From a virus: a DNA stretch of 64,000 bases. The notes under the pieces were generated by a model. The model had not been told where the DNA came from, ran no database searches, and saw only the letters and a program-made list of their open reading frames with translations. Made by a program: the position numbers and the translations under genes. Below, piece after piece: positions 10,032 through 38,517 of the stretch (the stretch's first letter is position 1; each line of letters begins with the position of its first letter). The stretch lies in IMG/VR virus record IMGVR_UViG_3300037219_000017, positions 1-64,000 of that record; one strand, written 5' to 3'.

Positions 10032-10504
10032 AGTACACCATCAAAAAGTGCAATAGCCTAGTCAAGATGCAGGCCATCCATAAGATGGCGTTCGCTGATG
10101 ATAGCTGGCCGGGCAACGACCACGAATTCTGGGTAGCCTACGACGAGCACGGCGGTGTCGCCGGCTTCGCCTCGGCCGTCCTGATGACTACGAAGGTAGT
10201 GTTCTTATCGCGTAGTGCAGTCACTATGAAGCATCGCGGCAACGGACTGCACCGACAGCTGATCGACGTGCGCATGAAGTGGGCGCGGGACGAGGGAGCG
10301 ATCCTTGCTCTCACATACATACGGAAGTACAACTACGCATCGCTCGTTAACCTGCTGCGCCGGGACTTCCACTTCGCGGGCCGCGTCCTGATTACGGCCA
10401 GGAACGAGGACTTCCATGTGATGTTCAAAGCCATGCACGGCGACGCCAGAAAGCTGAAGCCGCACATGACCAAGTACATCAACGACATGTTGGAGATGGA
10501 CTAA
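10028..10504 (+). CDS. GNAT-family acetyltransferase
   Basis: 158 residues. The acetyl-CoA loop is visible as SAVTMKHRGNGLHRQLID (R/Q-x-x-G-x-G/A type), followed by the long helix and the strand ILALTYIRKYN. The C-terminal third is basic and may contact nucleic acid or the substrate. Phage GNAT proteins are known to modify host or phage proteins or other small groups, but the substrate here cannot be told. It is coupled to both neighbours (4-base and 1-base overlaps). Confidence 0.75.
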   Translation: MKYTIKKCNSLVKMQAIHKMAFADDSWPGNDHEFWVAYDEHGGVAGFASAVLMTTKVVFLSRSAVTMKHRGNGLHRQLIDVRMKWARDEGAILALTYIRKYNYASLVNLLRRDFHFAGRVLITARNEDFHVMFKAMHGDARKLKPHMTKYINDMLEMD

Positions 10505-18815: not shown

Positions 18816-21227
18816 ATGAGCTTTTACGACAGGGTCCTCCCTGCGAAAGGCCCGTTTACCTTGATGACTGGGGTCTATGGACCCGACGGTAAGCTACATG
18901 ACCCGACGCACTGGGAGCGATTGCAGACGCACGAGGCGCTAGAGAAGAAAGTCCGGGAGCTGGCCACCCAGCCCCAGGAGATCTACTACGCGGTGGGTTC
19001 CTATGCGGGTAGGAGACGCAAGGGATCCATCGCGAAGCGTGCGTTCTTTCTCGACCTGGACTTCAAGTCGTTTGACTCCCCGCAAGATGCTATCCGTGGC
19101 CTGAATGTGTTCGTGAATACTGTGGGTTTGCCTCCTCCAAGTATTTATGTCAGTTCAGGCCACGGCATGCACATCTATTGGTGCCTCAACCGCGACGTTC
19201 CGATCGCGGAGTGGGAGCCGGTGGCTGACGCGCTCAAGGCGAAGTGCGCGGAGCTGAAGTTCCGCGCCGACCCGATGGTCACTGCTGACGCCGCGCGCAT
19301 CCTGCGCTGCCCCGGCACACTCAACCGCAAAGCTAAGGAGCCTGTCCCATGCGAAGTACGAATAGACAACGGAGCTACCTACTCTCTCGAAGCAATCGCA
19401 GCGCCGTTAGACGCTGCATCAGCCCCTTCAAATGTATCAAAACTGCTCGCCCTGGCTCCACCAGATGCGCTGATCACCAAACCGAACTTCCCAAAGCTCA
19501 GCGCCGACGAAGTAACAGCGATGTTGGCAAGCATCAAGCTGCAAAAGGACGAGCGCGAAAAATGGACGCACATCCTGTGCGCGATGCAGGACTGGGGACA
19601 GAAATCGGAAGAGTCGTGGGAGATCTTCTCCGAGTGGTCGGCTACGCAGCCGGACCACCACCCGGAAAAAATACGCGGAGAGTGGGAGGGCTTCCACGTG
19701 GGCGGTGGTATAACAATCGGTACACTGGTGAAGATGGCAAAGGACGCAGGCTACGAGCCGCCCGGCGTACCGCAGCCCGTGACGATCGAGCAGCCCACAA
19801 GTCTATCCGAGCAGATGGCAGCCGCGGCGCAGCCAAGCGCAGTCGACGATGACGTGCTTGTACCGGTCGTCGTCACGGTGGTGTCTGATCCACTTATGAT
19901 CGCCGCGCAGCACGCAGTCAACTTAACCGGCAGAGTGCGGTTCACTGAGCAAGACGCTATCAACTGGCTCGGCGCAGAGTTTGTCACTGTCGACAACGCG
20001 CCGGAGTATTACTTCTCCATGACGAAGCGCGAGCTGCTCAAAGACAACATCATCAATAAGAGGATCACCCGCTACATGCCATTGAACAGCCAGCGTAAGC
20101 CAATCAAAGCGACGGTTATCATGGAGCAGTGGGGCGTCAAACAATCAGTCAAAGCCCCGGGCTACCACCCCACGGCGGCAACGATCTACACAGAAGGTGG
20201 CGTTAACTACGTGAACAGATACACTCCGCCGGACGTCATGCTGCAAGCGAATAAGTTCGAGATCCAAATGATCGAGCTATTCTGGAAGCATATGTTCCCG
20301 CGCCCGCAGGACCAGCAGTTCAGCAAGTACATGCTGCAGACCTACGGGCACCTGGTCCAACACCCAGACATCAAGATCGAGTCGGCGCCGCTGATCATCG
20401 GCGAGCCCGGCAGCGGCAAGACCACGCTGGCCTTCGCCATAGTGCGGCGCTTAGTGGGCACACAAAACGCTTTGCTGGTCGACAACGAGACGTTGAAGGG
20501 AACGTTCAATGGCCACGCCGGGGACAAGCATGTATTCTACTTCGACGAGATCAAAGTGCAGGGCAGATGGGACAGCGAAGACATCGCCAACTCCCTTAAG
20601 AACCTGGTGGTCGGCGAAACGATGTTGATCCACCCAAAGTTTTTGACGCCATTCGAGCTGCCGAACAGAATGTTTATCACGGCTACGTCCAACTACGACG
20701 ACGCGATGCACCTGTCGTCTGACAAGGAGCGGCGATGGGGGGTGTACGAGCACTTCCCACCACACAGCACAGCTGCTATGAAGAAATTCTTTGTCGCATT
20801 TCACGACTGGATGAAGGGACCGCGCGGGCCTGGCGTGCTGCGCTGGTACTTCAGCCAAGTGGACCTGACAGGATACAGCCCACACGACGAGCCGCCATGG
20901 ACGGACGCCAAGGGGACCATGGTGGAGCAATCGCAGTGCAGAGAGGTTCAGAGTATCGTCGCTGCGATGAAGAACGGAGAGGCGCCGTTTGCGGGGGCTC
21001 TCACGACTCGCCTGCTGGTGCAGAATTTCTTACACTCGCAGACCGGGAAAACATATACGACCGAGGAGGCTGGGAAGCACCTAAGTAAGTCGTCGCCGGA
21101 GAGGGTTGTAGAGATAAAAACAATGAGGATCGGAGGCAAGGCGACGGTCGTCTACTGTTGGAAGGATACAAAATACTGGGCCGATCCCAAACGCACAGAC
21201 GACGAACGAAGAAAAGCAATTGGCTAA
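18816..21227 (+). CDS. Primase-helicase (AEP-type primase, PriCT-2, superfamily 3-like helicase)
   Basis: 803 residues. The primase has FFLDLDFK with D80 and D82, SSGHGMHIYW with H116/H119, and DAARILRCPGTLNRK. A PriCT-2-like domain follows at about residues 225-310 (REKWTHILCAMQDWG, WSATQPDHHPEK). The C-terminal helicase has Walker A GEPGSGKTT at 529-537, Walker B VFYFDEIK near 575 and FITATSNYDD. It should prime and unwind at the replication fork with the polymerase at 5821. Its stop overlaps the stop of the convergent giant gene by four bases. Confidence 0.9.
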   Translation: MSFYDRVLPAKGPFTLMTGVYGPDGKLHDPTHWERLQTHEALEKKVRELATQPQEIYYAVGSYAGRRRKGSIAKRAFFLDLDFKSFDSPQDAIRGLNVFVNTVGLPPPSIYVSSGHGMHIYWCLNRDVPIAEWEPVADALKAKCAELKFRADPMVTADAARILRCPGTLNRKAKEPVPCEVRIDNGATYSLEAIAAPLDAASAPSNVSKLLALAPPDALITKPNFPKLSADEVTAMLASIKLQKDEREKWTHILCAMQDWGQKSEESWEIFSEWSATQPDHHPEKIRGEWEGFHVGGGITIGTLVKMAKDAGYEPPGVPQPVTIEQPTSLSEQMAAAAQPSAVDDDVLVPVVVTVVSDPLMIAAQHAVNLTGRVRFTEQDAINWLGAEFVTVDNAPEYYFSMTKRELLKDNIINKRITRYMPLNSQRKPIKATVIMEQWGVKQSVKAPGYHPTAATIYTEGGVNYVNRYTPPDVMLQANKFEIQMIELFWKHMFPRPQDQQFSKYMLQTYGHLVQHPDIKIESAPLIIGEPGSGKTTLAFAIVRRLVGTQNALLVDNETLKGTFNGHAGDKHVFYFDEIKVQGRWDSEDIANSLKNLVVGETMLIHPKFLTPFELPNRMFITATSNYDDAMHLSSDKERRWGVYEHFPPHSTAAMKKFFVAFHDWMKGPRGPGVLRWYFSQVDLTGYSPHDEPPWTDAKGTMVEQSQCREVQSIVAAMKNGEAPFAGALTTRLLVQNFLHSQTGKTYTTEEAGKHLSKSSPERVVEIKTMRIGGKATVVYCWKDTKYWADPKRTDDERRKAIG

Positions 21228-24200
21228 GGCTGATCCCAGCGCGTCTGGTCTGTGACCTGTTGATTTTCCTTTCCAAGCGGCACTCCATACTGAATCTTCA
21301 AATCTTTGTTCGTTGTACCTTGAATCTCCCCGCTAGAAATCCAGGCGCCAGGGTTCCGGGCATTAAAACTATTGCTGCGATCCCAAGCGGCAACCGCCTC
21401 CGGCGATCCAGGGGGCGCGCTAATGATAGCGCGAACGATTGCCGTCCTCGCAAGACTCTGCGCCTTTGTAATTCCAGTCGCCACTCGATGCTTCTCTTGT
21501 GCATCGGCCACGTCTGCTGGAAGAAATCCAAACGTCTTCTTCGCCGCGTCGAGGCTCGACGGCTTCGTGATCGGCACCCCTGCACTATTCAACTTCCCTG
21601 TGTGAGCCAACTCATATCCCTGTGCGCCATCCTGGTACACCTTCAACGGGATCATACTACTGATCGCCCCTGGAACATCCCCGTTGATCAACTTCCCCAT
21701 CGCTCCCATCGCGTTCTTCCCCACCATCTGAACCAAGGCGCCTGCCTCATCGTTCACAAAATTCTTCCACGCGTCTTTGTCTCCCGATAATATATCCGGC
21801 ATGTCGTGGAAAATTATATTTGCAAACCCCATCCGCTCCTGCAGATCTATCCCCAACCCTTGCGCAATCGGCCCACGCGCAAGGTAGTTTCCCACCGTCG
21901 GGCCAGCGAGATCCGTCAACCATCCATGGATCGCGTTCTTCATATCAAAATACTCTCCCTCCTTGTCGAAGATCTTGTGATAGGCATACACAGCAAGATG
22001 TGCCGGTGCTATACCGGCCACACCGTACACTCCTGTGTACAAGAACGACCCAACCGCCAGACCGCCCAGTGTCTTTGCCGCCTGCCATGACCGCTGATTC
22101 TGCGTCTGCTCACCCACGTCGGAGCGCAGCCCGGGCACGGCTTTGATCACCTCAGCTATGTTCCCATAGGCCAAGTGCGCCATCGCCTGCGAGTAAGTCA
22201 TCATCATCGTCAGGGTGTTGCCCCCCCATATTTTATTCACGGCCTGAAACGCCCGCGGCTTATTCGCCGCGGAGTAGTCCGCGTGGTACTTCTCCACATC
22301 GTCCGCGGCCTTGCGCAGACCGTTCGCCAGGTCCTCCGGATCGTCTGGATTTTTGACGTTGAGTTCGAGGGACGCAAGGGCCGTGCTAGTACGGTTGAAC
22401 GCGTCGGTCATCGTGGGCATCATGCGGGCGTAGTCCATGACCTTAAGCACGGACGGCCACGTGCCACGTGCGATCTCATTCAGCGAATTCGCGAACCCGT
22501 GGCTGATCACGCCGCGCTCGTGCAGGATCTTGAGAGCCGGCGCGAACCTGTTCATGCCGCTCTTGGCTACGGCGTTCTGAATCGCTGTCTGAATGTTCTC
22601 CGGCGACGGTCCACCGTCAGCATTCCACCGAGAGAACTGTTCGTGCATCCCTGTGCGCAGTGCCGGTGACATCACCACGCCCATCGCCTTATACATCGCA
22701 GCCCGCGCAGGCAGCTGGCCGTGCTCGGCCGCCAGCCCGGGGATGGTCGTAGTGAAATTCTGCGTGCCCCATATGACAGCGTGCGCCGGTGACGTGAGGT
22801 AGTTCAGGAACCCCAGTCGCGCGGTCTGTCGATTGAGAAACCCCCCGGTGTTTATCTCCGCGTCGGTAGCGGCGCGGGCTGCGAGAGTGTGCACGATCTC
22901 TCCGCGTTTGAACATCGTGTCCTGACTAACCGGGCGCCCGATGTCGTTGCCCGCGTCGGACGACGCCATCGTACGCAGAGTCGCCATCGCGTCCGCCCGC
23001 TCGAACATCGTGCTGATCTGCGCGCTGTGCCAGATAGTGCTGGTTGCGTGGTCCGCGAAGTTCCGCCGCATCTCGCTGGCTTTCACACCTGCGAACCCCT
23101 TGCGCGTCAGTTGCGAGCTGGCACTCGCGCTGCGTGTGGCTTGTTTCTCCAGGTAGGCGCTATGCAGTGAGTCTATCAACGCCTTCGTTCCTTTGTCCGT
23201 ACCACCACGCTCGATCCTGGAGATAGCTGCTGTCATCAGCTCGTGCATACCAGGATCAAGAGACTTCGCTTCAGTGTGATCATAGACTTTCGTCGACACC
23301 AGCGGAGACTTATAGCCGGCGTCCAGCAGAGCACGCCGCGCCTGGAGAGCATCGTTCTGGCTGTCGTGCATCGACACATGGTCGACTTTGTAGTCCACAC
23401 GCCAGTCATTGGCGCCGGCGTTTCTGACTGTGGCTGTCGAGTTCGGCGATTCGTTACTAACCTGCTCTGCAAATGCGCGGGCCTTCGCTTCGTTGGCAAA
23501 CGACTGTCCCTCCGGCGCAGACTCGTTGGTCGCCTTGACGACGTACTGCCCATCTCGACCCAGGTGGGCGTACGGTCCGTCGATGTCAGAGCCCACCCAG
23601 GACTTCAAAGCCGCGAGCACCTTCGCGTTCTTTGGACCGACATCCACGGCGCCGCGTGGCTTGAGCAACCCTTTCAGCGCGCCTTCGTTCTTCGCACCGT
23701 ACAAATGCTTCAGCTGCTCAGAATTGAGACCCAACTCGAACGCCTGGTTCGCCGTGTCCACAGCACTCTTGCGCTCCATGACACGGAGCGCCTTGCTGGC
23801 AACAAGGGCACCGTCATAGACGCGGCGCGCGACAGGTGACAAACCTTTGTAGCTGTTCTCCATATCGGCGTGTCGTGCTGCGAAGCCAGCGCGCGCACTG
23901 GTGGCAGGTAGTTGCTGATCAGCCGCCGTGCGAGGGTCGATCTTCCACAAAGAGGAGTCGCGCAGCAGGCCGGCGACTGCCAGGTTGTCGTGGTTGGACA
24001 ATCCGTTCCACTCACGCACGACGGGGTTTACTATCTCCTGGCCCTTGTGAACACGTACTTGACGCGCCCACTCTGACTCTCGGATTTTGTTGAGTGGGTT
24101 CGCGGCGTCGTCGTTGCCGAAGAACCGTTTGCCGTCGCGAAAGATCTGCCCCACAGATTTGAGAGCAAACGTGGTCTTCCGTCCGAGATCCACGAGCTTG

Positions 24201-27200
24201 CTGCTCGTCAGCGCGTGCACCGTGTCGCGGATCTTGTCAGTCGCTTCGTCGCCTATCGCCGCGCGGATCGCCCCCTCCGCCTTCACGGGGCGCGAAGGAC
24301 GTTGCAGTTCGTTCTTATCATCCTCAGCATCTCTCGCCTGCGAAAAGGCTATATCATCCGGGCGAGCAGACGCATCAATGTAACCTGATCTACCCTCACC
24401 CGGCGCCGCCCCCAACGCCCGCACGTAGTCCGGGTCCAGATTGGCGTTCGCCCTGTATAACGCCCCTTCGTCGTACATGCTGGGGAACTTCATTCGCTGT
24501 ACGTCTGCAGCAGTGTCGTGCAAGTCCATCATATGCAGCGCCAGCTCAGGGTTCTTGTACCCCATGTGCTCTGCAACAGCGTTGACGATCTTCATCAACA
24601 GACCGGGGATACCCTTCCGCATCCCGGTCGGTGGGATGTACTCTCCCTTCTGTTTGAAATCCTCTGACCGGATAACCTCTTCAAGGAACTGCGGGTTGCT
24701 GTGCAGCTCAGACATCATCTCATCGATGTTCTTTATGCCATACAGGTGCCCGAACTCCGACTGATCCACGGGAGTAAACATTGACCCCGGCTCGCCGGAT
24801 AATGAATTAACGTAGTCATTGAACCCTGACGCCTTTCCCTCAGCTTTGTATTTGGCGCCCAGGCGAGAGACGAGGATGCTTAGTGCCGACTTCAGCTGCG
24901 TCGCCAGCTTGCCGTCGGGGTTCGTCTTCGTCTCGTACATGACTGCCGAGTGATCGACTTCGTGCATGATCGTATGGACAATCCGGTAGGCCGTCGTGCC
25001 GCCTACTCCGTTGATATCTCCGTCGTGTAAGCGGATCTGGATGGACGGCGCATCGGACTGCGCGGCAAACATTCCCTTAAAGCCGGGGCCGTACACCTCA
25101 AGAGTGTGCGGGTTGACGGTGTTCGACCGGATAAACGTCGGCACGTCCGGCGACTGCGCCCGCAGCGCTATGAGGCGCTGCTTCAATCCCTCCCCCTTCG
25201 TCTTCGCCTGCTCAATCAAGTGATCGAGAATCTCGTGCGATGACATCGGAATACCCGTGTCCCGCATGTCCCTCATCTTGGCGACGAGCCCGCTGTCGGT
25301 CAGGTGCCGGCCGAGATCCTCCATCTCCCGCATCATCGCGACGGTGTGGCCGTGCCATCTATTGAGCAGCGCGCGGACTATGCCCGGGCCGCCACTGGGG
25401 CGGAACACTTTCGATATTCCGGCCGCTTCTCCGCGCGGGCCAGTCAACTCCTTGCGCTGCTCGTCTGATACTTCAGGCGGCTGTTCGTCTTCTGGTATAG
25501 CGTTGGCGTCGCGCTGTGTCTGTACGTGTCGCAGCCACGCGTCCACCTCGGCCGCGATCTGATCGGCGGGGTGCCCGAGACGGGTTGCCACTGCATGGAT
25601 GTGCGCTACCAAAGCATCCGATGCCTTTGAGAGATCCTCCGGCTTCGCCTCGACGGCGTTACGGATCAGATCTCGCGCCCGGTTGGCTTCTTTCTCGGTC
25701 GCGACAGTCGCCTTCTCTTTTGGTTTGGCAGCGGCGATCTCGTCAGCGATGACTTTCCTGCTGGCATCGCCATACGACAGGCCCTCCGCGCGCATCAGAG
25801 CTTTGATTGCCTGGACCCTGTTCTTCGGCTTTCCCTTGCCAAGCTCCGTGTATTTAGGTTTCACAGAACCCCCTTCCTCGGGGGGTTTCGTGACAGGTTT
25901 CTCCGCAGGTTTATCGGCCACCTTATCGGCCACTACCGGTTTATCGGCCACGGGTTCAGGCTGCCCAAGCAGTTCCCGCGCAGCAGCGTGCATCTCATCG
26001 ACGCGCTTCGTGATCTGAGCATGCGACGTCCACAGTCCCTTGCCGGTGTCGCGTACGTTGTCCGCGCGCTGCAGGACTTGGCTCGCAGCTTCCGCGGCAC
26101 GCGAGCCGGCATCTCCCTCGACACCCTTCGCGGCTGCCTTGAGCGCTGTCGCAAAAGCAGACGCATTGGCCACGCGCTCCGGCAGCTTTGTCGCATTCTT
26201 CTTCCCAGCGACTTTAGCCTCCTGCGTCTCGTGGAGCTTGAGAGCGGCCGGTAGCTGCTCCAGGGGGGAGCCCTTGGTCTTCACTGGCTCGGCTTCGTGC
26301 ACTGGTTCGCTTGATGTGGCATTGGTACGAACGCTCTCCGCCGGCACGAGTCGTCCCGCCCCGGGCTCGCCGCTGTCGTCCAGGGGGTGGACCATGACGC
26401 GCCCGTCGGGAGCCTTCTCACCTACGTGAACTGCGACCTCCGTCCCAGAATCTGTTTTGAAGTACCCTGCGCGGGCCGTATCGGGCACCTTGGGCTCGAT
26501 AACGGGCTCTTTAGGGCTCGCAGGCGCTGCTGGCTCGGCCTCCTTGGTAGCAGGGGCAGGGGCCTCTTCCTTCGGCGCAGCGGCCTCCTCCGGGTTCCTG
26601 GTCTTCCAAATCTTCATGGCCGAGTCCCGCGTACGACCCTCCTCGTTCATGATGTCGGTCACACCCGCCTGGTGCTCGGGGGGTAGCGCGTCGAACGCGG
26701 CGCTGGCCTTGTCATCCGCGTGGGCTTCAGGGCTGAACACATCGTCCGGCTTATGGACAACGTCGGCGCGGGCCTTAGTCAAGCGGGCGTTCTCAGCACT
26801 GACTACGCGTCGATCTTCTACCCGCTGGTCGGTATCAACAGGAGAATCAGCCTCCCGGCGATCGGGGGCGCCGCGATTGTCCTGTTCGTCGAATCCGGGA
26901 GCGCCAATCTGCGCCTCAGCCTTCTCGGCGTTGACACTCTGCGTGCGCTCATTAATCACACCCTCCGGCGTCATCGTGACTGGGATCGTGCCACGCTCGA
27001 CCATAGCCTGACGCGTAACTGCTTCGGCTGCAGGCGCCACTGTCGTCTCATGGATGACGCTGCCGTCAGCCGCGCGCCCCTGAACCACCACGGTCTGATC
27101 AGGAGACTTGCCACCGCCGGCACCAGTGACGCGGCCGATCACAGACTGCGGGTCCTCGCCGGCGGCGAGACGCGAGCGAACTACGCCAGCAGCTTTTTGA

Positions 27201-29089
27201 TTGGGCAGTACAAGAGTGCCGGTGTCAGTGTCCACAGTACGGCCCTGTGTCTGCGCTTGTGTTATCTGCCGCTTGACTGTGTCTCCGTGCTCGTGACCGT
27301 CGGGCAGAGAATCTAGGTGAGCCTGGGTCTCAGTCGAGACCAACACGCCGTCTTTATTGCCAAGCCGCATCGATGCGAGCTGTTCGCGGATCTGCTTCGC
27401 AGGCTCTGCAGTCGGCGTGTCTGCCACAGCGGGCGCTGCGGGCACGGGCTTGATGGGGGCAGTCGACGCCGCGGGCGACGGACCAGGAGGCGGAGGAGGC
27501 TCATTGCCGTCTGTACCGGGCTTCAACGCCGTGGCGGCTGCCGGCGACGGTTGCGTATCGGGCGCTGGTTTCGGTGCCTTCGCTCCGCCCTCATGCGTCA
27601 ACGCTCCGAAGATCGCGCCCATCAATGTGTTCTCGATGAAACTCTTTGGATCGGTAAGCGCCTTCTTGAACTCTTGCACTGCACCCTGGTAGCCGGGGTC
27701 GTTCAGTATCTTTTTGGTCGCAGTTTCTGCCAGTGGGTTAATGGCGATGTTGGCGCCGGCACCGCCGAGGATGCGCGTCCACAGCGGAAAACTCTTAAGC
27801 AGGCCAGGAGCCTTGATGCCAGCAGCGGTAGAGGCGGCGTTAAGCAGACCGACCTTAATCGCTGTATCCAAACTCTTGTTGGCGTCTACAGCATCCACCG
27901 AGCCGTTTGCCATTGCTGACGTCACCATCAGTGTCGTACCCAACGGACCAGTCAGCAACGGCGCAGCCATGGCCGCGGTGTCACCAACGATCTGCGCGCC
28001 AGTGCCGCCGGGCTTGTCAGGCGTCCAGTGTTGGGGATTTGCCCACGGGTGATTATTTATGAAGCTATCCAGGTGTTTGAAGTAGGTGTCAGCAGCAGCC
28101 TGTCCTTGATTCGGTCCGCCGCCAGGATTGTTCAACGATCCTGCGACAGCTGCACCAGCGCCACCGAATACTCCGACGGCGTGGCCGAGCAGGGCGAACC
28201 CGCGCATCAGGCCGTTGCCGAGGTTAGATCCAAAACCCTCGAAGTATGACGGTGATGGACCTTGCACTGGAGGTACGACAGGCGCTGCGTTGACTGGTGA
28301 GTGGGAGCCAGGAGGTGCAGCTGCGGCAGCAGCCGAAGGGTTGTACGGCGGAGGAGGCTGAAGCGCAGTCCCGGGTTGCACCTTTGTGCCGACGCGCCGT
28401 ACGGCTGCACCAGGTTGATCATCAGTGAACGCGTTGTCGGGGTTCATCTCCTGTGCAGTAGGGATGCCTTGAGTAGCGATCGGCTGTTGAGGAGCCCGAT
28501 TAGCCATGAACTTTTGGACGTACGGATCTTTCTGCACCTGGTCAGGGGTAGCCTTTTCAGCAGCACCCATGCCGTGATTGTAGGCATAGGCCGCCGTTGC
28601 CGGATCTCCGTTGAACTTGTCGAGACCCGCTTTATATAAATCCAATCCGCGGCCGGTGTTCCATTCCGGATCGAGGGCATTGTCCTCTTCACCAGGGTGG
28701 ATGTTCGTATCGTTGATTTGAAACAAACCGTGGTCTTGCGTACCGTTCTTATTTGTGTTGACGATATTCGGATCGCCGCCACTTTCTCCCATCATAAGCG
28801 CATTGGCGTCGTTAGGATCAACACCGCGGTGTGTTGCGGCATTCGATACCATAGTTGAAATCTGAGGATCAATATGATGCGCAGCAGGCGGGCCGCCCTG
28901 CGGACGATACACAGCCGCAGCTGCAGCAGATGGTTGTGTACCCGTATCTGGGATACTTGACGAACTGCTGCCGCTCATGCCACGGACGTGTTGAATCTCA
29001 GCGTCGATAGCAGATCGTGTTTGAGCTACAGCAGCATCTTCTGGTGTCGGCGCTGGGGTAGCGGCGGGAGGAGGGGTAGCGTCAGCCAC
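21224..29089 (-). CDS. Giant internal virion/ejection protein with lytic transglycosylase and zincin domains
   Basis: 2621 residues, GTG start with an AGGTG site. Residues about 75-170 form an SLT-type lytic transglycosylase: GESGGDP with likely catalytic E102, then HGLFQIN and AAYAYNHG. A long Ala/Pro/Lys-rich linker region follows. Around 1290-1450 lies a gluzincin-like domain, H1376-E-V-D-H1380 with IKNIDEMMSELHSNP as third-ligand segment. The remainder is helical, with a hydrophobic stretch near 2333-2373. Size and content match polyvalent phage proteins that are packaged and ejected; T7 gp16 is an analogue for the transglycosylase. It probably opens the cell wall and acts inside the host. 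Last gene of the late operon. Confidence 0.85.
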   Translation of the reverse strand: MADATPPPAATPAPTPEDAAVAQTRSAIDAEIQHVRGMSGSSSSSIPDTGTQPSAAAAAVYRPQGGPPAAHHIDPQISTMVSNAATHRGVDPNDANALMMGESGGDPNIVNTNKNGTQDHGLFQINDTNIHPGEEDNALDPEWNTGRGLDLYKAGLDKFNGDPATAAYAYNHGMGAAEKATPDQVQKDPYVQKFMANRAPQQPIATQGIPTAQEMNPDNAFTDDQPGAAVRRVGTKVQPGTALQPPPPYNPSAAAAAAPPGSHSPVNAAPVVPPVQGPSPSYFEGFGSNLGNGLMRGFALLGHAVGVFGGAGAAVAGSLNNPGGGPNQGQAAADTYFKHLDSFINNHPWANPQHWTPDKPGGTGAQIVGDTAAMAAPLLTGPLGTTLMVTSAMANGSVDAVDANKSLDTAIKVGLLNAASTAAGIKAPGLLKSFPLWTRILGGAGANIAINPLAETATKKILNDPGYQGAVQEFKKALTDPKSFIENTLMGAIFGALTHEGGAKAPKPAPDTQPSPAAATALKPGTDGNEPPPPPGPSPAASTAPIKPVPAAPAVADTPTAEPAKQIREQLASMRLGNKDGVLVSTETQAHLDSLPDGHEHGDTVKRQITQAQTQGRTVDTDTGTLVLPNQKAAGVVRSRLAAGEDPQSVIGRVTGAGGGKSPDQTVVVQGRAADGSVIHETTVAPAAEAVTRQAMVERGTIPVTMTPEGVINERTQSVNAEKAEAQIGAPGFDEQDNRGAPDRREADSPVDTDQRVEDRRVVSAENARLTKARADVVHKPDDVFSPEAHADDKASAAFDALPPEHQAGVTDIMNEEGRTRDSAMKIWKTRNPEEAAAPKEEAPAPATKEAEPAAPASPKEPVIEPKVPDTARAGYFKTDSGTEVAVHVGEKAPDGRVMVHPLDDSGEPGAGRLVPAESVRTNATSSEPVHEAEPVKTKGSPLEQLPAALKLHETQEAKVAGKKNATKLPERVANASAFATALKAAAKGVEGDAGSRAAEAASQVLQRADNVRDTGKGLWTSHAQITKRVDEMHAAARELLGQPEPVADKPVVADKVADKPAEKPVTKPPEEGGSVKPKYTELGKGKPKNRVQAIKALMRAEGLSYGDASRKVIADEIAAAKPKEKATVATEKEANRARDLIRNAVEAKPEDLSKASDALVAHIHAVATRLGHPADQIAAEVDAWLRHVQTQRDANAIPEDEQPPEVSDEQRKELTGPRGEAAGISKVFRPSGGPGIVRALLNRWHGHTVAMMREMEDLGRHLTDSGLVAKMRDMRDTGIPMSSHEILDHLIEQAKTKGEGLKQRLIALRAQSPDVPTFIRSNTVNPHTLEVYGPGFKGMFAAQSDAPSIQIRLHDGDINGVGGTTAYRIVHTIMHEVDHSAVMYETKTNPDGKLATQLKSALSILVSRLGAKYKAEGKASGFNDYVNSLSGEPGSMFTPVDQSEFGHLYGIKNIDEMMSELHSNPQFLEEVIRSEDFKQKGEYIPPTGMRKGIPGLLMKIVNAVAEHMGYKNPELALHMMDLHDTAADVQRMKFPSMYDEGALYRANANLDPDYVRALGAAPGEGRSGYIDASARPDDIAFSQARDAEDDKNELQRPSRPVKAEGAIRAAIGDEATDKIRDTVHALTSSKLVDLGRKTTFALKSVGQIFRDGKRFFGNDDAANPLNKIRESEWARQVRVHKGQEIVNPVVREWNGLSNHDNLAVAGLLRDSSLWKIDPRTAADQQLPATSARAGFAARHADMENSYKGLSPVARRVYDGALVASKALRVMERKSAVDTANQAFELGLNSEQLKHLYGAKNEGALKGLLKPRGAVDVGPKNAKVLAALKSWVGSDIDGPYAHLGRDGQYVVKATNESAPEGQSFANEAKARAFAEQVSNESPNSTATVRNAGANDWRVDYKVDHVSMHDSQNDALQARRALLDAGYKSPLVSTKVYDHTEAKSLDPGMHELMTAAISRIERGGTDKGTKALIDSLHSAYLEKQATRSASASSQLTRKGFAGVKASEMRRNFADHATSTIWHSAQISTMFERADAMATLRTMASSDAGNDIGRPVSQDTMFKRGEIVHTLAARAATDAEINTGGFLNRQTARLGFLNYLTSPAHAVIWGTQNFTTTIPGLAAEHGQLPARAAMYKAMGVVMSPALRTGMHEQFSRWNADGGPSPENIQTAIQNAVAKSGMNRFAPALKILHERGVISHGFANSLNEIARGTWPSVLKVMDYARMMPTMTDAFNRTSTALASLELNVKNPDDPEDLANGLRKAADDVEKYHADYSAANKPRAFQAVNKIWGGNTLTMMMTYSQAMAHLAYGNIAEVIKAVPGLRSDVGEQTQNQRSWQAAKTLGGLAVGSFLYTGVYGVAGIAPAHLAVYAYHKIFDKEGEYFDMKNAIHGWLTDLAGPTVGNYLARGPIAQGLGIDLQERMGFANIIFHDMPDILSGDKDAWKNFVNDEAGALVQMVGKNAMGAMGKLINGDVPGAISSMIPLKVYQDGAQGYELAHTGKLNSAGVPITKPSSLDAAKKTFGFLPADVADAQEKHRVATGITKAQSLARTAIVRAIISAPPGSPEAVAAWDRSNSFNARNPGAWISSGEIQGTTNKDLKIQYGVPLGKENQQVTDQTRWDQP

Positions 29090-29097
29090 TTGTCACC

Positions 29098-32000
29098 TCA
29101 CTCTGAGTCTTGGCCAGTCGCCACCTGAGCTTCCTCTGGGCTTGTAGCGTCATCGGCGCTACCGCCGCCGCCGCCCCCTCCGCCACGGGAGGGTGCGCCG
29201 CCACCTGGGTCGATCGCAGGGCCGCGCGTGTCGATGTTAGCGGACAGCCAGAAGCGATCGTAGCTCTGCTTCGCTGGGTTCCAAATGAACTTCGCGGGAT
29301 GGTCCTGTCCGTCGCCGACACCCTTCCGTCCTTTGACCATATCAGTCACCACATCTTTATCTGGCTTCTTTGTCTGGGGGTTGATGTGCTGCGGGGGATT
29401 GTGCGGATCTTTCGCAACCGACTTGTTGTAGTTGATGATCTGCGCAGCCGCGCGGACGATCGTGCGAGAGTCTGATTCTATGTTCGCGCCATGCAACTCG
29501 CCAGCCAGAGCGGCACCCTGCTGAATATCCTCCTGCGTCTGACCCGCAAAGACAGGGTCCCGGTTAGCAATATCACGTACACCAGGTTTATTAGCCTGCG
29601 GATTTGGCATCATTGCTTTGTGAGTGGGGTCATTCGGATTAGGAACCATTGCCGGTTGCTGCGTAATCTCTCCTTGCGACGAATCCATATATTGCTTCGA
29701 CGAATCATTCTGAGCCGCACGAAGATTAGCTATCGTGACTTTCGTTCCGCCGCCTCCGCCGGTTGCCTGATCACTGGCGAGCTTATTAGCTACGGCAGTG
29801 TTCCGATCTGCGTTCCCTTGCATCTCAGCACCGCGATACGGAGAGAGCGCCTCGTTCGTGAGCGAGTTCCGAACGGCCGCTTGGCCCATCATGTTACGGC
29901 CACTGGCAAGTGTCTGTGCCGCATGCGCGCGCTGCAATTCAGCCGACGCCTTGGCACCTGCCACATATTGACCCTGCAGTCCAGTACCGAACGCAACAGG
30001 ATCTTGCGCAGCCTGCAGCATCGAACTGAGGGAGATAGCAGTGAGCGGAACTTTCGTCGGAGAGCCCTCATGTCCCGGCATCCCGGCGAACGGGTTCTGA
30101 ACAATGAACGTACCGGCGGTAACCGGGTTTCCGGGTTGGCTGTACTGCGTAGCTTCCTCCGCAGTAGCTTTGTGCAGCTGCAACGGGGCGCCGTTCGGAA
30201 GGTAGTAGCTCATCGCTTTGACCGCCTGCTCTACGCCATCTTGATCGCCATTCTGAAGACGCTGCAAGGCGACGCCACCCCACTTCATGTACTGCCCTTG
30301 CAAGTGTGCGGTCTGCAGGTTCGTCAATGACTGATAAACCTGATTGCCGTCCATACCAGCGGCCGTCGCTGCGCGGGCGGCTTTCCACTTAGCCTTCTCC
30401 ATATCTTCCCAGTCGTGTTGGTCAAGCGACTCTTTGGTGCCGCCTTGGCCAGGGATCTGAGCGGGCGCTGATGTGGGCTTGATAGTAGCAGTGGCATCAC
30501 CTACAGCTGTGCCAGACGCAGCAGCTGCTTCGGGGGTTGCACCAGCGGCAGCTGCGCCGCCAGTAGTTTGAGAGGCCGCCTTTCCTGCCGCCACGGCAGT
30601 CTGCGGAGGAGCGCCTGTAGCCTGCGCTGTCTGGGCGACATCTGCGCCGACGGCAGGCGGTGAACCGGGAGGCGGCGGAGGTGGAATAGCGGGCGCGGCG
30701 GCAGCGGGTGCGCCAGGAGGGCGCTGCCCCGTCACAGTCACCTGCGGCATACCTCCAGGCGCGCCAGGAGCGGGTGCTGGCGTGCCGGGAGTACCAGGAG
30801 CGCCACCCACGCCAGGCTTGCCAGGTTGGCCGGGCGCAGTCGCGCCCTGCGCGGGCGGAGGCGGAGGAGCAGGAGCAGCGGGAGTCGGGTTCCACGGTGG
30901 CGGAGCTTGCACACCGGCAGTTGGCGGAACTGTGTTGCTACCAGGGGCCACGCCGGTGTTCGTAGGCGGGAGGCCGGGAGCGGCAGTATTCGCCTTGTCG
31001 TCCAACGTCTTGCTGTGAATCAGATCAGCAAACTTGTCGATGTAGCCATGAACCATACCAACGGCGCCGGTCTGGCCAGACGCCTGTTGATCAGCAGTAG
31101 GCAGCCCCTGCGACTCATGGTACTTGTCCATGTTCGCTTTTTCTTGAGCAGTCTCCGCATCTTGGACGGCGTTGCGTTGCTCACGTTGACGCCAATTTTC
31201 CTGGATGTTTTTCATCACATCCATGCCCTGCCCCATGCCACCTACTAAGCCAGTACCGCGAGTCATGCCGAGCGAAGACGCCGACTGCGCGGGCTGCATA
31301 GGCGTCCACGCCGAACCAGACGGGGGCATCCCGAGACTTTCATTCACTGGTCCTGCGTTATCCAGACCGCCCATCATTGCGCTAATGGGGCCGCCGGCGG
31401 CGTGCCCGAGCACCACAGGAACACCAGAGGATGTGCCGCCGCCGTGAACAAAGTAGGCTTGCTTTGCCGCAGCTGTCGGATCGGGCGGCACAGGACCACC
31501 ACCGTCCATGGTGAGGACTTGTCCTTCTGGCGACGCAGGTGTGATGCCCTGCCCCATGCTCCGACCAGACGGAATAGCTCCCATGGCGCGGCCGGGGAAC
31601 ATCGGCAATCTGTTCGTACGCGACCCATAATTCTGCACAGAGCCACCTTGCTGATAGTTCCGCGCGCTGCCGAAGTTCGCCGGTAGCGGACCAGTGGGGG
31701 GCATCTTGCTGACAGGAGTTATAACACCGCCCTTTGACATGGCGGGCGGCTGACCTTGCATCGAGGCGGGATCGAAGCTCGGCTCTGTCTGCACAGGCTG
31801 ATGCACACCACTCGTAGGACCTGGAGGAGCAGGTATTCCAGCTTTACCCATGCCGGATACGTGATGCAGCAAGCCCCACATCGGGTGAGTCGGATGAGCC
31901 ATCGGGTGTACGAAGCCGCCGCCTTGCATACCAGCAAGAGCGGACGAAGCGGTAGCAGAATTCAAATCGCTGCCGGCGTTGGCGTCCCCCATCAGAGGAG

Positions 32001-32262
32001 TCAGGTTCCCTTGACCGGAGCCGTTCGCGCCTGGTGCAAGAGGTGCGCTACCGCCGGACGGGTTCATAGCATTGAACGCTGCACCCCCAAGTCCGGAGCC
32101 GCCTGCTCCATAGTTCTGAGCCATGCCACCCAGCGCGCCAGCTATAGCGCCAGCGCCGCTCTGCCCGCCAGTGTTTGCCATTGGCGTATACCCAGCCGTG
32201 CCAGCGCCGGTGCCGGGAACCCGAGCTATAGGTGCTGCTGGTGCTGAGGAACCGCCGCCCAT
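29098..32262 (-). CDS. Gly/Pro/Ala-rich internal virion-type protein
   Basis: 1054 residues, TAATG overlap with the gene before. Roughly the first 640 residues are low complexity, rich in G, A, P and Q, with repeated GG-turn motifs (SKGGVITP, MDGGGPVP, AAGGPISAMMGGL). From about 640 the chain is more ordered and helical (WEDMEKAKWKAARAATA, IDSDSRTIVRAAAQI-like helix). It lies between two other late virion-type genes, the place of T7 gp14-16. Probably an internal or ejection protein; no catalytic motif seen. Confidence 0.75.
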   Translation of the reverse strand: MGGGSSAPAAPIARVPGTGAGTAGYTPMANTGGQSGAGAIAGALGGMAQNYGAGGSGLGGAAFNAMNPSGGSAPLAPGANGSGQGNLTPLMGDANAGSDLNSATASSALAGMQGGGFVHPMAHPTHPMWGLLHHVSGMGKAGIPAPPGPTSGVHQPVQTEPSFDPASMQGQPPAMSKGGVITPVSKMPPTGPLPANFGSARNYQQGGSVQNYGSRTNRLPMFPGRAMGAIPSGRSMGQGITPASPEGQVLTMDGGGPVPPDPTAAAKQAYFVHGGGTSSGVPVVLGHAAGGPISAMMGGLDNAGPVNESLGMPPSGSAWTPMQPAQSASSLGMTRGTGLVGGMGQGMDVMKNIQENWRQREQRNAVQDAETAQEKANMDKYHESQGLPTADQQASGQTGAVGMVHGYIDKFADLIHSKTLDDKANTAAPGLPPTNTGVAPGSNTVPPTAGVQAPPPWNPTPAAPAPPPPPAQGATAPGQPGKPGVGGAPGTPGTPAPAPGAPGGMPQVTVTGQRPPGAPAAAAPAIPPPPPPGSPPAVGADVAQTAQATGAPPQTAVAAGKAASQTTGGAAAAGATPEAAAASGTAVGDATATIKPTSAPAQIPGQGGTKESLDQHDWEDMEKAKWKAARAATAAGMDGNQVYQSLTNLQTAHLQGQYMKWGGVALQRLQNGDQDGVEQAVKAMSYYLPNGAPLQLHKATAEEATQYSQPGNPVTAGTFIVQNPFAGMPGHEGSPTKVPLTAISLSSMLQAAQDPVAFGTGLQGQYVAGAKASAELQRAHAAQTLASGRNMMGQAAVRNSLTNEALSPYRGAEMQGNADRNTAVANKLASDQATGGGGGTKVTIANLRAAQNDSSKQYMDSSQGEITQQPAMVPNPNDPTHKAMMPNPQANKPGVRDIANRDPVFAGQTQEDIQQGAALAGELHGANIESDSRTIVRAAAQIINYNKSVAKDPHNPPQHINPQTKKPDKDVVTDMVKGRKGVGDGQDHPAKFIWNPAKQSYDRFWLSANIDTRGPAIDPGGGAPSRGGGGGGGGSADDATSPEEAQVATGQDSE

Positions 32263-33524
32263 TATTGCAGACTCACGTGTGGAGGATGGTGGATAGGGAT
32301 CGCCCGGCGAAGGTTCGCTTTCTCACGCGCGCTGTCGATCAGCTTGTGGAAGTGTTCGTTGCCAAAATGGTCGACGACATCCTTCGGTATGACGAATTCT
32401 CCAGGGGTCAAGAGAGCGGGCTTCGTATCGGTCGAGCCAGGTATCGGACTGGCAGGAAGTGCACCACGCGCAGAGACTTGTCCGCCGGCTATGTACTGTC
32501 CATAGGGGGCGCTCGTGAGTCGACCACCAGCCAAGATCTGTCGCGGGCCGGGGACTACGCGGGCTGAGGGAGAGTTGAGAGTCGGCGTGCTCGGCGGCAC
32601 GTAGTCATAGTTTTCAACAACGCCACCTGACGCAAAGACAGGTATGCCCCGCCGGAACGTGATCGGGCCGCCGTCTTCCATACCGGCCATCATCGAAGTG
32701 ATTGGACCACCCCCTCCCATCATCGCTGCCATGCCAGCTACCTGTCCGATCTGCTGCATCTGCGCGGCCTGCGCCGCAGCAGCGTCCTGATAGGACGTTT
32801 GCTGATCGCTGAACTGATCCTGTACGCCGGTCATCGAATTCTGGTTCGCCGTATTGGCGACGTTCAACATCGAGTTCGCGCCAGCTAAGTTGGAAACGTC
32901 CGCGGCACCAGTAGCGTTCGCAGCCCCCTGTCCACCCTGCGCGGTCGATGCCGCACCAGCCATGCCGGCATTGCCGGCTGCGCCAACATTGAGGCCGAGC
33001 TGGTTGGCGGTGTTAGACATGTTGAACGCCTGCTGCTGTCCCTGGATACCGGCCTGCGTTCCAGCGTTAGCCGCAGCGGCAGCGTTCTGCACGTTGCCCT
33101 GCGCCTGGATGGCGCCACCGTGAATACTTGCGGGATCGACGCCCTCGGACGCGAGCGCAGCGGCGTTGTTCTGCTGACCAGCCTGATTGGCCGCGCCGAC
33201 ATTGCCGATCGCCTGCCCCTGCAGCTTCTGTATGTTGGCGTTCGATCCATACGCCGACGCCTGCTGAGCCTCCTGACCCTGAAGAGGTTGGAAGTTCTGC
33301 TGGTAAGAATTCATGTTCGACTGAGCTTGACCGCTCATAGCCGAAGCAGCGTTGTTCGTCGTGCCAAGAGTCGACGTAAGGTTATTGTTCGCGACAGAGT
33401 TCTGCGCGTTCGCAACCTGCGTACCCTGCGCGGAGTTGGCGCTAGCCGTTCCGAACGTCTGATTAGCCTGCCCTATTTGGGAGCCTAGACTGGGGGCTGA
33501 TGGGGGTGTGGGTCCGCCTGACAT
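32262..33524 (-). CDS. Gln/Asn/Ala-rich virion protein with C-terminal LTPGEFVIP motif
   Basis: 420 residues from ATG 33524, chosen for the GGAG at about -10; the frame extends 12 codons upstream. The N-terminal 280 residues are long helix rich in A, N, Q and G. The C-terminal part has GG motifs (GGGGPITSMM, DGGPITF, ASGGVVENYD) and ends with LTPGEFVIPKDVVDHFGN, a motif seen in phage tail and injection proteins. Likely an internal core or tail-associated protein. It overlaps the acetyltransferase-like gene by 40 bases. Confidence 0.75.
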   Translation of the reverse strand: MSGGPTPPSAPSLGSQIGQANQTFGTASANSAQGTQVANAQNSVANNNLTSTLGTTNNAASAMSGQAQSNMNSYQQNFQPLQGQEAQQASAYGSNANIQKLQGQAIGNVGAANQAGQQNNAAALASEGVDPASIHGGAIQAQGNVQNAAAAANAGTQAGIQGQQQAFNMSNTANQLGLNVGAAGNAGMAGAASTAQGGQGAANATGAADVSNLAGANSMLNVANTANQNSMTGVQDQFSDQQTSYQDAAAAQAAQMQQIGQVAGMAAMMGGGGPITSMMAGMEDGGPITFRRGIPVFASGGVVENYDYVPPSTPTLNSPSARVVPGPRQILAGGRLTSAPYGQYIAGGQVSARGALPASPIPGSTDTKPALLTPGEFVIPKDVVDHFGNEHFHKLIDSAREKANLRRAIPIHHPPHVSLQ

Positions 33525-33928
33525 GATCGTTGCTTCTCCAGTGGTGCTACCCACTTGCAATCTTGTTTTCCTAGTATCCCAAACCAGAGATCGTCCGTCA
33601 CGGCCAGCTGCTTGAAGCCCAGGCGTCGTCCAATATTCAATGACTTAGGGTTCGACGTCTGGATAATAGCATAACAAGCGCTGTAACCCCACTGGCAGAA
33701 CATAGTCCAGAAGACTTCGTGCAGGAGGGGGCGTGTATAAGGGCGGTCAGTGACAGTGTGAAGTGCGCAGGAATGATCCTGAAAACTGTCGAAGCCGAAG
33801 GCGGAAACGATCACTCCGTCCACTTCGCGGGCTATGGAGTGAAAAGCTATCTGAATAGGAAGCCCGGACCGGGAGTGCATCCACAACTGCGTCCGGGCAT
33901 CGTTGACTACTAGTCGATCAGTGTGCAA
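33485..33928 (-). CDS. GNAT-like acetyltransferase in late operon
   Basis: 147 residues. A central beta sheet with EVDGVIVSAFGFDSF, then PLLHEVFWTMFCQWG and ACYAIIQTSNPKSLNIGRRL matches the C-terminal half of GNAT folds (N-P-x-x-x-x-x-x-x-x-G-F). The start is uncertain: TTG 33928 after GGATAG, or ATG 33880. Phage particles often carry such genes between structural genes; substrate unknown. Confidence 0.6.
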   Translation of the reverse strand: MHTDRLVVNDARTQLWMHSRSGLPIQIAFHSIAREVDGVIVSAFGFDSFQDHSCALHTVTDRPYTRPLLHEVFWTMFCQWGYSACYAIIQTSNPKSLNIGRRLGFKQLAVTDDLWFGILGKQDCKWVAPLEKQRSCQADPHPHQPPV

Positions 33929-36176: not shown

Positions 36177-36598
36177 TATTTGATCGTGCCCTCGGAGCTG
36201 GATGCGGGCTGCGCTTGCAGGAGGAGACTCGCAGCGTGATCGGCGGCGTCAGATGCAACTAACGCGGCCTTGTCTGTTCCGATCTTGGTAGCAGCAGCAA
36301 CGGCGGTAGCCGTGATCGCAGCCTGCTTCAACTCCATAAGCTCGGCGGTCATCGCCGACAGGCGACCGTCCGTATCGACGTGGATCTGCGTCACCAGGTT
36401 GTGGTTCTTGTTGCTGAGGTACATCGCCACAGCAGAGAAGATACCAGCCAGCGTAGAACCAGCGAGTGTAAGGATAGCACTCATGTTGGCGCTAATCCAA
36501 GTGGGTGCCTTGGCGACCTCAATCACCGGCTGAACAACAGGAGTCGCAACAGCAGTCGTAAGAGCCTCCTTGATAAATTCAAAAAGCTGTATGTTCAT
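36176..36598 (-). CDS. Single-pass membrane protein beside the lysozyme
   Basis: 140 residues. One hydrophobic segment at about residues 38-60 (MSAILTLAGSTLAGIFSAVAM), N terminus amphipathic, C terminus an Ala-rich helical coil (AAITATAVAAATKIG). It could be a second holin, an antiholin or a holin-like scaffold. ATGA and TAATG overlaps place it firmly in the lysis cassette. Confidence 0.6.
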   Translation of the reverse strand: MNIQLFEFIKEALTTAVATPVVQPVIEVAKAPTWISANMSAILTLAGSTLAGIFSAVAMYLSNKNHNLVTQIHVDTDGRLSAMTAELMELKQAAITATAVAAATKIGTDKAALVASDAADHAASLLLQAQPASSSEGTIK

Positions 36599-38517
36599 GT
36601 TTGTTGTAGCTCCTTCGCCGTCTCTGCAATCGCCAGTGAGTACACTGGACTATTCCCAATGATCGTAGCATACCAGCCGTCACTCTTCACGCCGGCGGGC
36701 AGCCGGTAGATCTGCTCGGAGAATATGCCAGCCTGGAAGATGTTGATCCAGGCAGATGACAACAAGTCTCGACAGTAAACAAAGACAGTCGCGCCAGCTG
36801 TGATGTTCTCCATCGAAGCCAGGGGGAATAGCCCTGAGCCGCCGATGGGCTCCCTGATCTCAGGTATGGGCGAATAACCCGCGGGGTTCGCGAAGGTGGG
36901 CTGCTGCAGCGTGCGTACGCCGTTGATCACGGCACCATTGATGGGGTTCAGCGGCTTCTGGATGCGCTGGGCATTGTAGGCAGAGTACAACAACAGCTGC
37001 GCCGGACTGACAAAGATGGTGCCGGAGTTAAACTTCAAACGCAGCGCGCCCATGTTGACCGGCTTCGGCAAGTCGAACTGCTTCGACGTCCAGGTGTACT
37101 CCAAAGGGGTCGTGTTGACAGGGTCCCAAAGCTGGGCCTGGTTGTTCGTAACCAAGTAGACATCGCCGGAGTAGGCGTCGATCTGTATCGCCGTGACGTG
37201 CGAGAAGCGGTCCAGCGTGGTCAGCGGGGTGGACTGGTCGGTTGGGCTAAAGATAAAGCCGGTGGACTCGGTGTCGAATGCCACTATCTCCACGCCATAT
37301 GGCGCCGCGTAGACAGTCGTCGGGCTGAAATCCTCTTGCCATTCCTGCCGTGTGAACAACTGCCTAGTCACGAGCTGCGTGTAACCGCCCGTGTTCAGGA
37401 TGATACCCTGCGGACTCGCATAGTAGACGCCGTCAACAGTCGTCACGATGCTGCGTCGGCTCACGCACGGATCGATAGAGTCCATCTTTTGCAGGGTCAC
37501 GTTGGCAGGGTTCATGCCCTCCGCGAAGTACGGGTGGGACGTCGTCATAACCATGATGCAGTTCTGATAGATCGCGAGTCCGACGATCTCTGTTTGACAC
37601 GTCTGGATGTTCTCCACGGGCCACGCGTGCGGTTGATACGGCTGCGACATCCACAGGTCACGTCCGGAGAAGCCGACCAGAAAACCGCCGGGGTGCGCCA
37701 CGAGGCCCTGCAGAGTTATTGGCGGCTGCGTGTAGGTGATCGACGGGATGGTGTAGTTGAGACCTATAACTTCGTCCAACGCGGCGTCATCGTAGGTCGT
37801 CGTTCCTAAAGTCACATTGCCCACATAGAAATACGACCCGGAGAGTGATCGATAGATGTTCACTGATGCGACGTTAAACCAGCTGGGATTTACCGAAGGG
37901 ACCTGAACCGTCGGCTGGATGCCAGTGATGTACCAGATACCGTTGGTGTTGCCGGTCGCTATCGTCGGCGGGGACGGCGCGCTCTCTTCACCGTAGGCAG
38001 AAACGAACGTGTAGATATAGGCTCGGACTTCGGACTGGGAGGCGGTGGCGACCGGGGGCGTGATGGTTGGGGCAACAGTAGGGGCTGGGATGCCGAGTAT
38101 CCAGGCGTGGGAACCTGGGTTGGGGCCGGCATTGAGCCCCGAGCGGGTACTGTAGGCAGGCGCCCCGCCGAAGGGGGTGAGGGTGTCGTCGCCGGTCCAG
38201 TAGTATCGTTCGAAGCTGTCTTCGAGGACGGGGGTTCGGACGAAGTCGACGCCGGGGTCGGGGAAGCCGATCCAGTCGTCGGAGCCCCCGATAGGGAGCG
38301 GGGCTGCCACAGATGCCGGGAGCCGAAAAGCCCTGGCGATGGTGTATCCGAGTTCGTCTTGGTTGAAGTCGTAGAGTACCGTCGGTTCACAATAGCCTCG
38401 CAGTTCTCCGGAAAGCAGCTTCGCGTTCGCGGCCGTGACCGCCTGGTTCTGTTGCAACAGGCGGGCTGAGCGGCGGGGCGCTATACCGGAGAAATTATCG
38501 ATCTTAAGAAGAGTCAT
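36595..38517 (-). CDS. Virion structural (tail-associated) protein
   Basis: 640 residues. N terminus IDNFSGIAPRRSARLLQQNQ with an ANAKLLSGELRGY segment resembles podovirus virion proteins that I know only as structural. The body is beta-rich with fibronectin-like spacing (AYIYTFVSAYGEESAPSPP), then many aromatic strands suggesting a propeller. It is near the fibre genes, so a tail hub or adsorption-apparatus role is likely. No enzyme motif. Confidence 0.7.
   Translation of the reverse strand: MTLLKIDNFSGIAPRRSARLLQQNQAVTAANAKLLSGELRGYCEPTVLYDFNQDELGYTIARAFRLPASVAAPLPIGGSDDWIGFPDPGVDFVRTPVLEDSFERYYWTGDDTLTPFGGAPAYSTRSGLNAGPNPGSHAWILGIPAPTVAPTITPPVATASQSEVRAYIYTFVSAYGEESAPSPPTIATGNTNGIWYITGIQPTVQVPSVNPSWFNVASVNIYRSLSGSYFYVGNVTLGTTTYDDAALDEVIGLNYTIPSITYTQPPITLQGLVAHPGGFLVGFSGRDLWMSQPYQPHAWPVENIQTCQTEIVGLAIYQNCIMVMTTSHPYFAEGMNPANVTLQKMDSIDPCVSRRSIVTTVDGVYYASPQGIILNTGGYTQLVTRQLFTRQEWQEDFSPTTVYAAPYGVEIVAFDTESTGFIFSPTDQSTPLTTLDRFSHVTAIQIDAYSGDVYLVTNNQAQLWDPVNTTPLEYTWTSKQFDLPKPVNMGALRLKFNSGTIFVSPAQLLLYSAYNAQRIQKPLNPINGAVINGVRTLQQPTFANPAGYSPIPEIREPIGGSGLFPLASMENITAGATVFVYCRDLLSSAWINIFQAGIFSEQIYRLPAGVKSDGWYATIIGNSPVYSLAIAETAKELQQT

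Follow-up and report, generated by a model that had tools for sequence, protein, structure and literature searches.

A giant polyvalent protein of a podovirus-like genome, with a lytic transglycosylase domain and a predicted zincin site also found in podovirus ejection proteins

Polyvalent proteins of phages, giant polypeptides that combine several unrelated catalytic domains, were defined by Iyer et al. in 2017 (PMC5512222). For their zincin domains, recognised by an HExxH helix and a glutamate on a second, C-terminal helix, zincin-driven processing or an attack on host proteins was already proposed in that work. Processing precedes packaging for phage P1 DdrB, but the virion RNA polymerase of N4, which has a similar site, enters the particle unprocessed (PMC5512222); self-cleavage before packaging is therefore not general. 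A smaller protein, the ejection protein of Pectobacterium phage PhiM1, has been modelled within the phage particle, and its region 268-528 was described as endolysin/exotransglycosidase-like (PMC11440229).

Here we analyze a giant gene in a window of 64,000 nucleotides (the whole stretch of DNA studied), which is part of a 64701-base IMG/VR virus record. The 2621-residue reading frame proposed by the initial annotation is confirmed as a single ORF and lies on the minus strand, with a GTG start at 29089 and a stop codon ending at 21224. The GTG start fits well, since a GAGGTGA ribosome-binding-like stretch is located immediately 5' of it and the colinear homologue in L007 (2661 aa) starts at the same place (MADPTG.. 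against VADATP..). This start lies 8 bases past the end of the upstream 1054-aa gene, and at its 3' end the giant shares 4 bases with a convergent primase-like gene (18816-21227), at the stop of the latter. A similar convergent arrangement is seen in the 62.7-kb record of a relative (L019), with a 2232-aa giant facing an 803-aa gene. No relatives emerged when viral contigs were scanned with the full-length protein, and the first 25 kb of the window had no megablast match among phages. The features discussed below are the following.

21224..29089, minus strand: whole gene, 2621 aa (ORF; colinear 2661-aa homologue in L007)
28544..28849, minus strand: SLT lytic transglycosylase, residues 81-182 (Pfam PF01464, E=6.6e-13)
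28142..28198, minus strand: hydrophobic stretch, residues 298-316, a possible membrane contact (hydropathy scan)
26795..27568, minus strand: conserved block, residues 508-765, within the variable region between SLT and zincin (40% identity to G003/L017)
24560..25186, minus strand: zincin-like metallopeptidase domain, approximately residues 1302-1510 (alignments; PDB profile matches; hhalign to PhiM1-type ejection proteins)
24950..24964, minus strand: HEVDH, residues 1376-1380, predicted zinc ligands and catalytic base (sequence; conservation)
24707..24721, minus strand: E1457-E1461, probable third zinc ligand (E1457) and second-shell residue (E1461) (conservation)
23705..24037, minus strand: LPD39-like region, residues 1685-1795 (Pfam PF18858, E=5.3e-5, below the cut-off)
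21320..23389, minus strand: PLxRFG 'tail-700' domain, residues 1901-2590 (NCBIfam NF032893, E=9.4e-55)
29098..32262, minus strand: 1054-aa protein immediately upstream, whose position makes it a probable ejectosome partner (counterparts in L007, L011 and RHph_TM29)
32262..33560, minus strand: 432-aa virion structural protein, probable ejectosome partner (phrog_8003, E=5.2e-11)
36595..38517, minus strand: 640-aa member of an 'internal virion protein' family, same gene block (phrog_511, E=2e-112; homologue in Bcep22-like podoviruses)

Upstream of the giant, on the same strand, we find terminase, portal, major head, tail-fibre and internal virion genes, and the giant is the last gene of this head/portal/internal-virion block. 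The order of 432-aa protein, 1054-aa protein and giant recurs in L007 (410, 975 and 2661 aa), in L011/L017 (382, 810 and 2322 aa) and in Rhizobium phage RHph_TM29, and recalls the ejectosomes of T7-like phages, which consist of three proteins. The 1054-aa neighbour has no match to a Pfam or PHROG family, and a scan of viral contigs with it returned no relatives. The giant of the Bcep22-like podovirus JC1 (gp69), which carries an SLT domain, an HEAFH site and LPD38, was detected in CsCl-purified virions with 51 unique peptides (PMC9144972). Together, the gene order and JC1 gp69 support, short of proof, a virion location of the window giant, which is probably present in the particle and injected first. 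Elsewhere in the window, a 543-aa protein in the replication half (10504-12135, plus strand) resembles phrog_1745 'DNA transfer protein' over nearly its full length (E=4.7e-139), and a 300-aa protein of this podovirus-like genome (42497-43399, minus strand) resembles baseplate wedge and virion structural families (E down to 1.5e-26).

The C-terminus is the known PLxRFG domain, scoring 186 bits against a curated cut-off of 100. The LPD39-like region in front of it stays below its threshold (23.4 bits against a curated cut-off of 27), and five of six family members match this model. Membership of the PLxRFG/LPD39-like group, gene position and a virion-proven relative thus lend support to the proposal of the initial annotation that this is a polyvalent protein of the ejected type.

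At the other end of the protein, the SLT motif with E102 noticed earlier is borne out: the putative catalytic residue (28784-28786, within MMGESGG) falls inside the curated family match, which scores 48.7 bits against a cut-off of 21.3. The ES, GLxQI and AYNxG motifs are all present, the latter two reading GLFQIN and AYNHG. By eye, no SLT is seen in the N-terminal sequences of the L017 and L019 giants, and the latter has no Pfam match at all. Nonetheless, the downstream parts of both align although the SLT is absent, with L019 being 46% identical in the C-terminal part. The SLT thus looks like an optional module that is gained and lost (it is missing in these two relatives, and the zincin is found in all aligned homologues), and the core of the protein looks like zincin plus C-terminus.

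The stretch between SLT and zincin is mostly rich in Pro, Ala and Glu, and no known enzyme domain was recognised in it in the window giant. The hydrophobic stretch at residues 298-316 was not reproduced at the same place in L007 (hydropathy), and a match to a YwqJ-deaminase (E=0.09) was rejected as noise. Relatives do hold enzymes here: the giant of RHph_TM29 (L002:6496-13482) has an inorganic pyrophosphatase domain (E=6e-48) before the zincin, and that of Pseudomonas phage Skulduggery has an SNF2 helicase and a methylase. Such exchangeable cargo, together with the host attack listed as an alternative by Iyer et al. (PMC5512222), might suggest that the zincin itself is a host-directed effector, cleaving for instance a defence or envelope protein, with the remainder of the giant serving for delivery. 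The zincin, however, keeps a constant place just before the C-terminal module and is present in every aligned homologue, including smaller ejection proteins without cargo. Because of this constant place and universal presence it behaves like an integral component of the machine and not like an effector that can be swapped, and we consider the effector reading quite unlikely.

The HEVDH motif at residues 1376-1380, also reported by the initial annotation, is indeed present, though an HExxH alone is little proof since 505 of 5000 shuffled versions of the giant (10%) contain one. Its significance comes from conservation. In an alignment of 14 homologous segments (from viral contigs, annotated phages and one contig extension), which are only 16-58% identical over the zincin region, T1373, H1376, E1377, H1380, Y1450, G1451, E1457, E1461, N1465 and F1468 are identical throughout. 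The two x positions (1378 and 1379) vary freely, as in VGASVMSMMIMMMM and DETEVIVTTTATTT, and the spacing between HExxH and the glutamate motif ranges from 43 to 94 residues across loci. Given the invariance of H1376, E1377, H1380, E1457 and E1461, the metal site is under selection, and the pattern is supported as an HExxH + Glu site of zincin/gluzincin-like type. The frequency of the motif in shuffles would fit a chance occurrence without any zincin, but the site is invariant in the 14 homologues and likewise in nine ejection proteins far removed from them, and the profile-profile similarity is significant (see below). At the level of sequence conservation this explanation is already refuted, and it is highly improbable.

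The segment proposed to supply a third ligand was found after HEVDH as IKNIDEMMSELHSNP (residues 1452-1466, approximately), with the glutamate helix DEMMSEL at 1456-1462, and its glutamates are invariant. In thermolysin E166 is a zinc ligand and D170 a second-shell residue, with ExxxD spacing. By analogy, E1457 is the likely third ligand and E1461 a second-shell residue; the assignment of the initial annotation thus holds for the segment, with E1457 the better candidate: the distant ejection proteins matched by the zincin profile retain this glutamate but not E1461. The zincin/gluzincin-like site as such is supported by both conservation and profile matches, with activity as a prediction. The Pfam model MPTase-PolyVal (PF18818) does not match the window segment; one of six segments tested matched, a different one, at E=0.059. 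Since the MPTase polyvalent proteins form 12 clades (PMC5512222), which need not fit one model, this only lowers the claim to that particular Pfam family. A scan of genome contigs with the zincin alignment gave no matches.

Structure prediction was less informative. The AlphaFold model of residues 1230-1570 has a mean pLDDT of 67 (pTM 0.68): the HExxH helix (1367-1389) reaches 76-80, the next helix 90-96 and the glutamate helix 75-85, and much of the expected sheet region is below 60. Foldseek against the PDB returned nothing at E<1 (noise only). A search of the viral library BFVD placed Internal protein D of Bordetella phage BB8 first (E=1.5e-4); polyvalent and crAss-like proteins ranked lower. 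Given the lack of a PDB match for a model with such a low-confidence sheet, the zincin assignment is one that rests on sequence. The model of the C-terminal part (pLDDT 55.6, pTM 0.37) was too poor for a fold search.

Profile searches link the zincin to podovirus ejection proteins. Built from the 14 segments, the zincin profile hits three PDB entries: 9sfn_G 'internal virion protein' (E=1e-13), 8vb2_A 'tetrameric ejection protein (gp48)' of phage PhiM1 (E=6.8e-7) and 23sg_S 'gp10' (E=9e-6), and all three alignments run through the HExxH and the glutamate helix. With a smaller zincin profile, weak matches (E 0.07-0.5) were found to a WLM-domain metalloprotease, IrrE and a lethal-factor-type protease. 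We then compared nine PhiM1-type proteins from Pectobacterium, Pseudomonas, Vibrio, Proteus and Klebsiella phages: H385, E386, H389 and E449 (PhiM1 numbering) are invariant in all nine, and hhalign of the giant family against them gives a probability of 98.2 (E=5.8e-14) for the zincin only. The C-terminal parts do not align (hhalign probability 1.2), which doubles as a control. Homology of the C-terminus to the PhiM1 ejection proteins, suspected by eye, was accordingly dropped, there being also no NCBIfam PLxRFG match. The same motif pair, HELVH ... NIDEFFAEAFANSSF, is observed in a 2007-aa protein (L005:6462-12485) of the crAss-like phage cr55_1; this link started at E=0.7 and was later supported by the shared motifs.

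The zincin alignment spans PhiM1 residues 382-512, which points to a zincin in this part instead of an exotransglycosidase. The PhiM1 protein (L033:2198-5989) and its eight counterparts (L034-L041), all with the invariant HExxH...E, are annotated as 'endolysin domain' or 'peptidoglycan lytic exotransglycosylase', and for PhiM1/KP34-type proteins this is a probable misannotation. Apart from the N4 work and the 2017 survey, the open-access papers searched contained no account of a zincin in ejection proteins of this type. The new link would be that many ordinary podoviruses also carry this protease-like domain, within their injection machinery. As a tentative extension, for which we see somewhat less than even chances, podovirus ejection may rely on this zincin as a conserved, working component, which would not be confined to giant polyvalent proteins and would share its catalytic residues with the tetrameric ejection proteins of PhiM1/KP34 type; proteolysis would then generally take part when these phages build or open the channel.

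It might be argued that HExxH + E is a structural zinc site or proteolytically dead, and that the domain serves the ejection complex purely as a component: the virion RNA polymerase of N4 is uncut in the particle (PMC5512222), and the PhiM1 ejection protein was modelled in the particle with proteolysis unmentioned (PMC11440229). The catalytic base E1377 is nevertheless invariant together with the ligands; zinc binding for structure alone would not require it, which makes this reading rather unlikely.

SLT domains in internal proteins of phages are known biology, from which the peptidoglycan-cutting role is taken. Overall, the likely explanation for the giant as a whole is that of a polyvalent protein of the podovirus virion core (ejectosome), in which packing, ejection, SLT cutting and zincin action are combined. 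The helical C-terminal PLxRFG/LPD39-like module would pack the giant in the head above the portal, and the C-terminus would dock it. Gene order and the virion-proven relative suggest that it is ejected along with its 432- and 1054-aa neighbours and ahead of the DNA. The N-terminal SLT, a clear family match, would cut peptidoglycan to let the channel pass. The zincin-like domain, with its conserved zinc-site residues, may act as a zinc protease around ejection. Its target would most likely be the phage's own ejection proteins, which it would release or remodel, and less likely a host protein. The suggestion of the initial annotation that the protease could free the domains or attack host proteins repeats what Iyer et al. 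had put forward (PMC5512222).

The gain from the window giant alone is modest: it adds another polyvalent giant, with a clean layout of SLT, zincin and PLxRFG. The zincin shared with ejection proteins is the wider point and matters more. If the zinc site is catalytic in the PhiM1/KP34 relatives, one mutation of a catalytic residue could test how the channel is built, and calling that part of the protein an 'exotransglycosidase' would need correction.

Compared with known systems, the giant combines an SLT and a zincin site in 2621 aa of a phage record, with HEVDH and an invariant E1457 on the second helix; by these predicted domains it is a polyvalent protein in the sense of Iyer et al. 2017, and of an already known kind. 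The MPTase polyvalent proteins are likewise very large, combine lysozyme/transglycosylase, MPTase and LPD-type domains and have the same proposed roles, whereas the window giant has only two recognisable enzymes and its MPTase segment is unmatched by the MPTase-PolyVal model. The PLxRFG ('tail-700')/DarB-like podovirus giants (Skulduggery, POI1126, Itty13, PEp14 and LASTA) share the C-terminal module. Skulduggery also has an N-terminal SLT and an HExxH ahead of this module, but differs by the helicase and methylase in between: no such domains were found in the window giant, and 'DarB-like', after the antirestriction protein DarB that shields phage DNA against type I restriction, is the annotation of relatives only. 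The N4 virion RNA polymerase (PMC12633501), likened here by description, is an ejected giant in which an HExxH domain precedes a large C-terminal domain of mostly helical structure; its RNA polymerase domain was not found in the window giant. The PhiM1 ejection protein (PDB 8vb2; PMC11440229) is shorter (1263 aa), with no SLT found and no C-terminal homology detected, but it has a homologous zincin domain with the same catalytic residues, and its gene adjoins that of another ejection protein.
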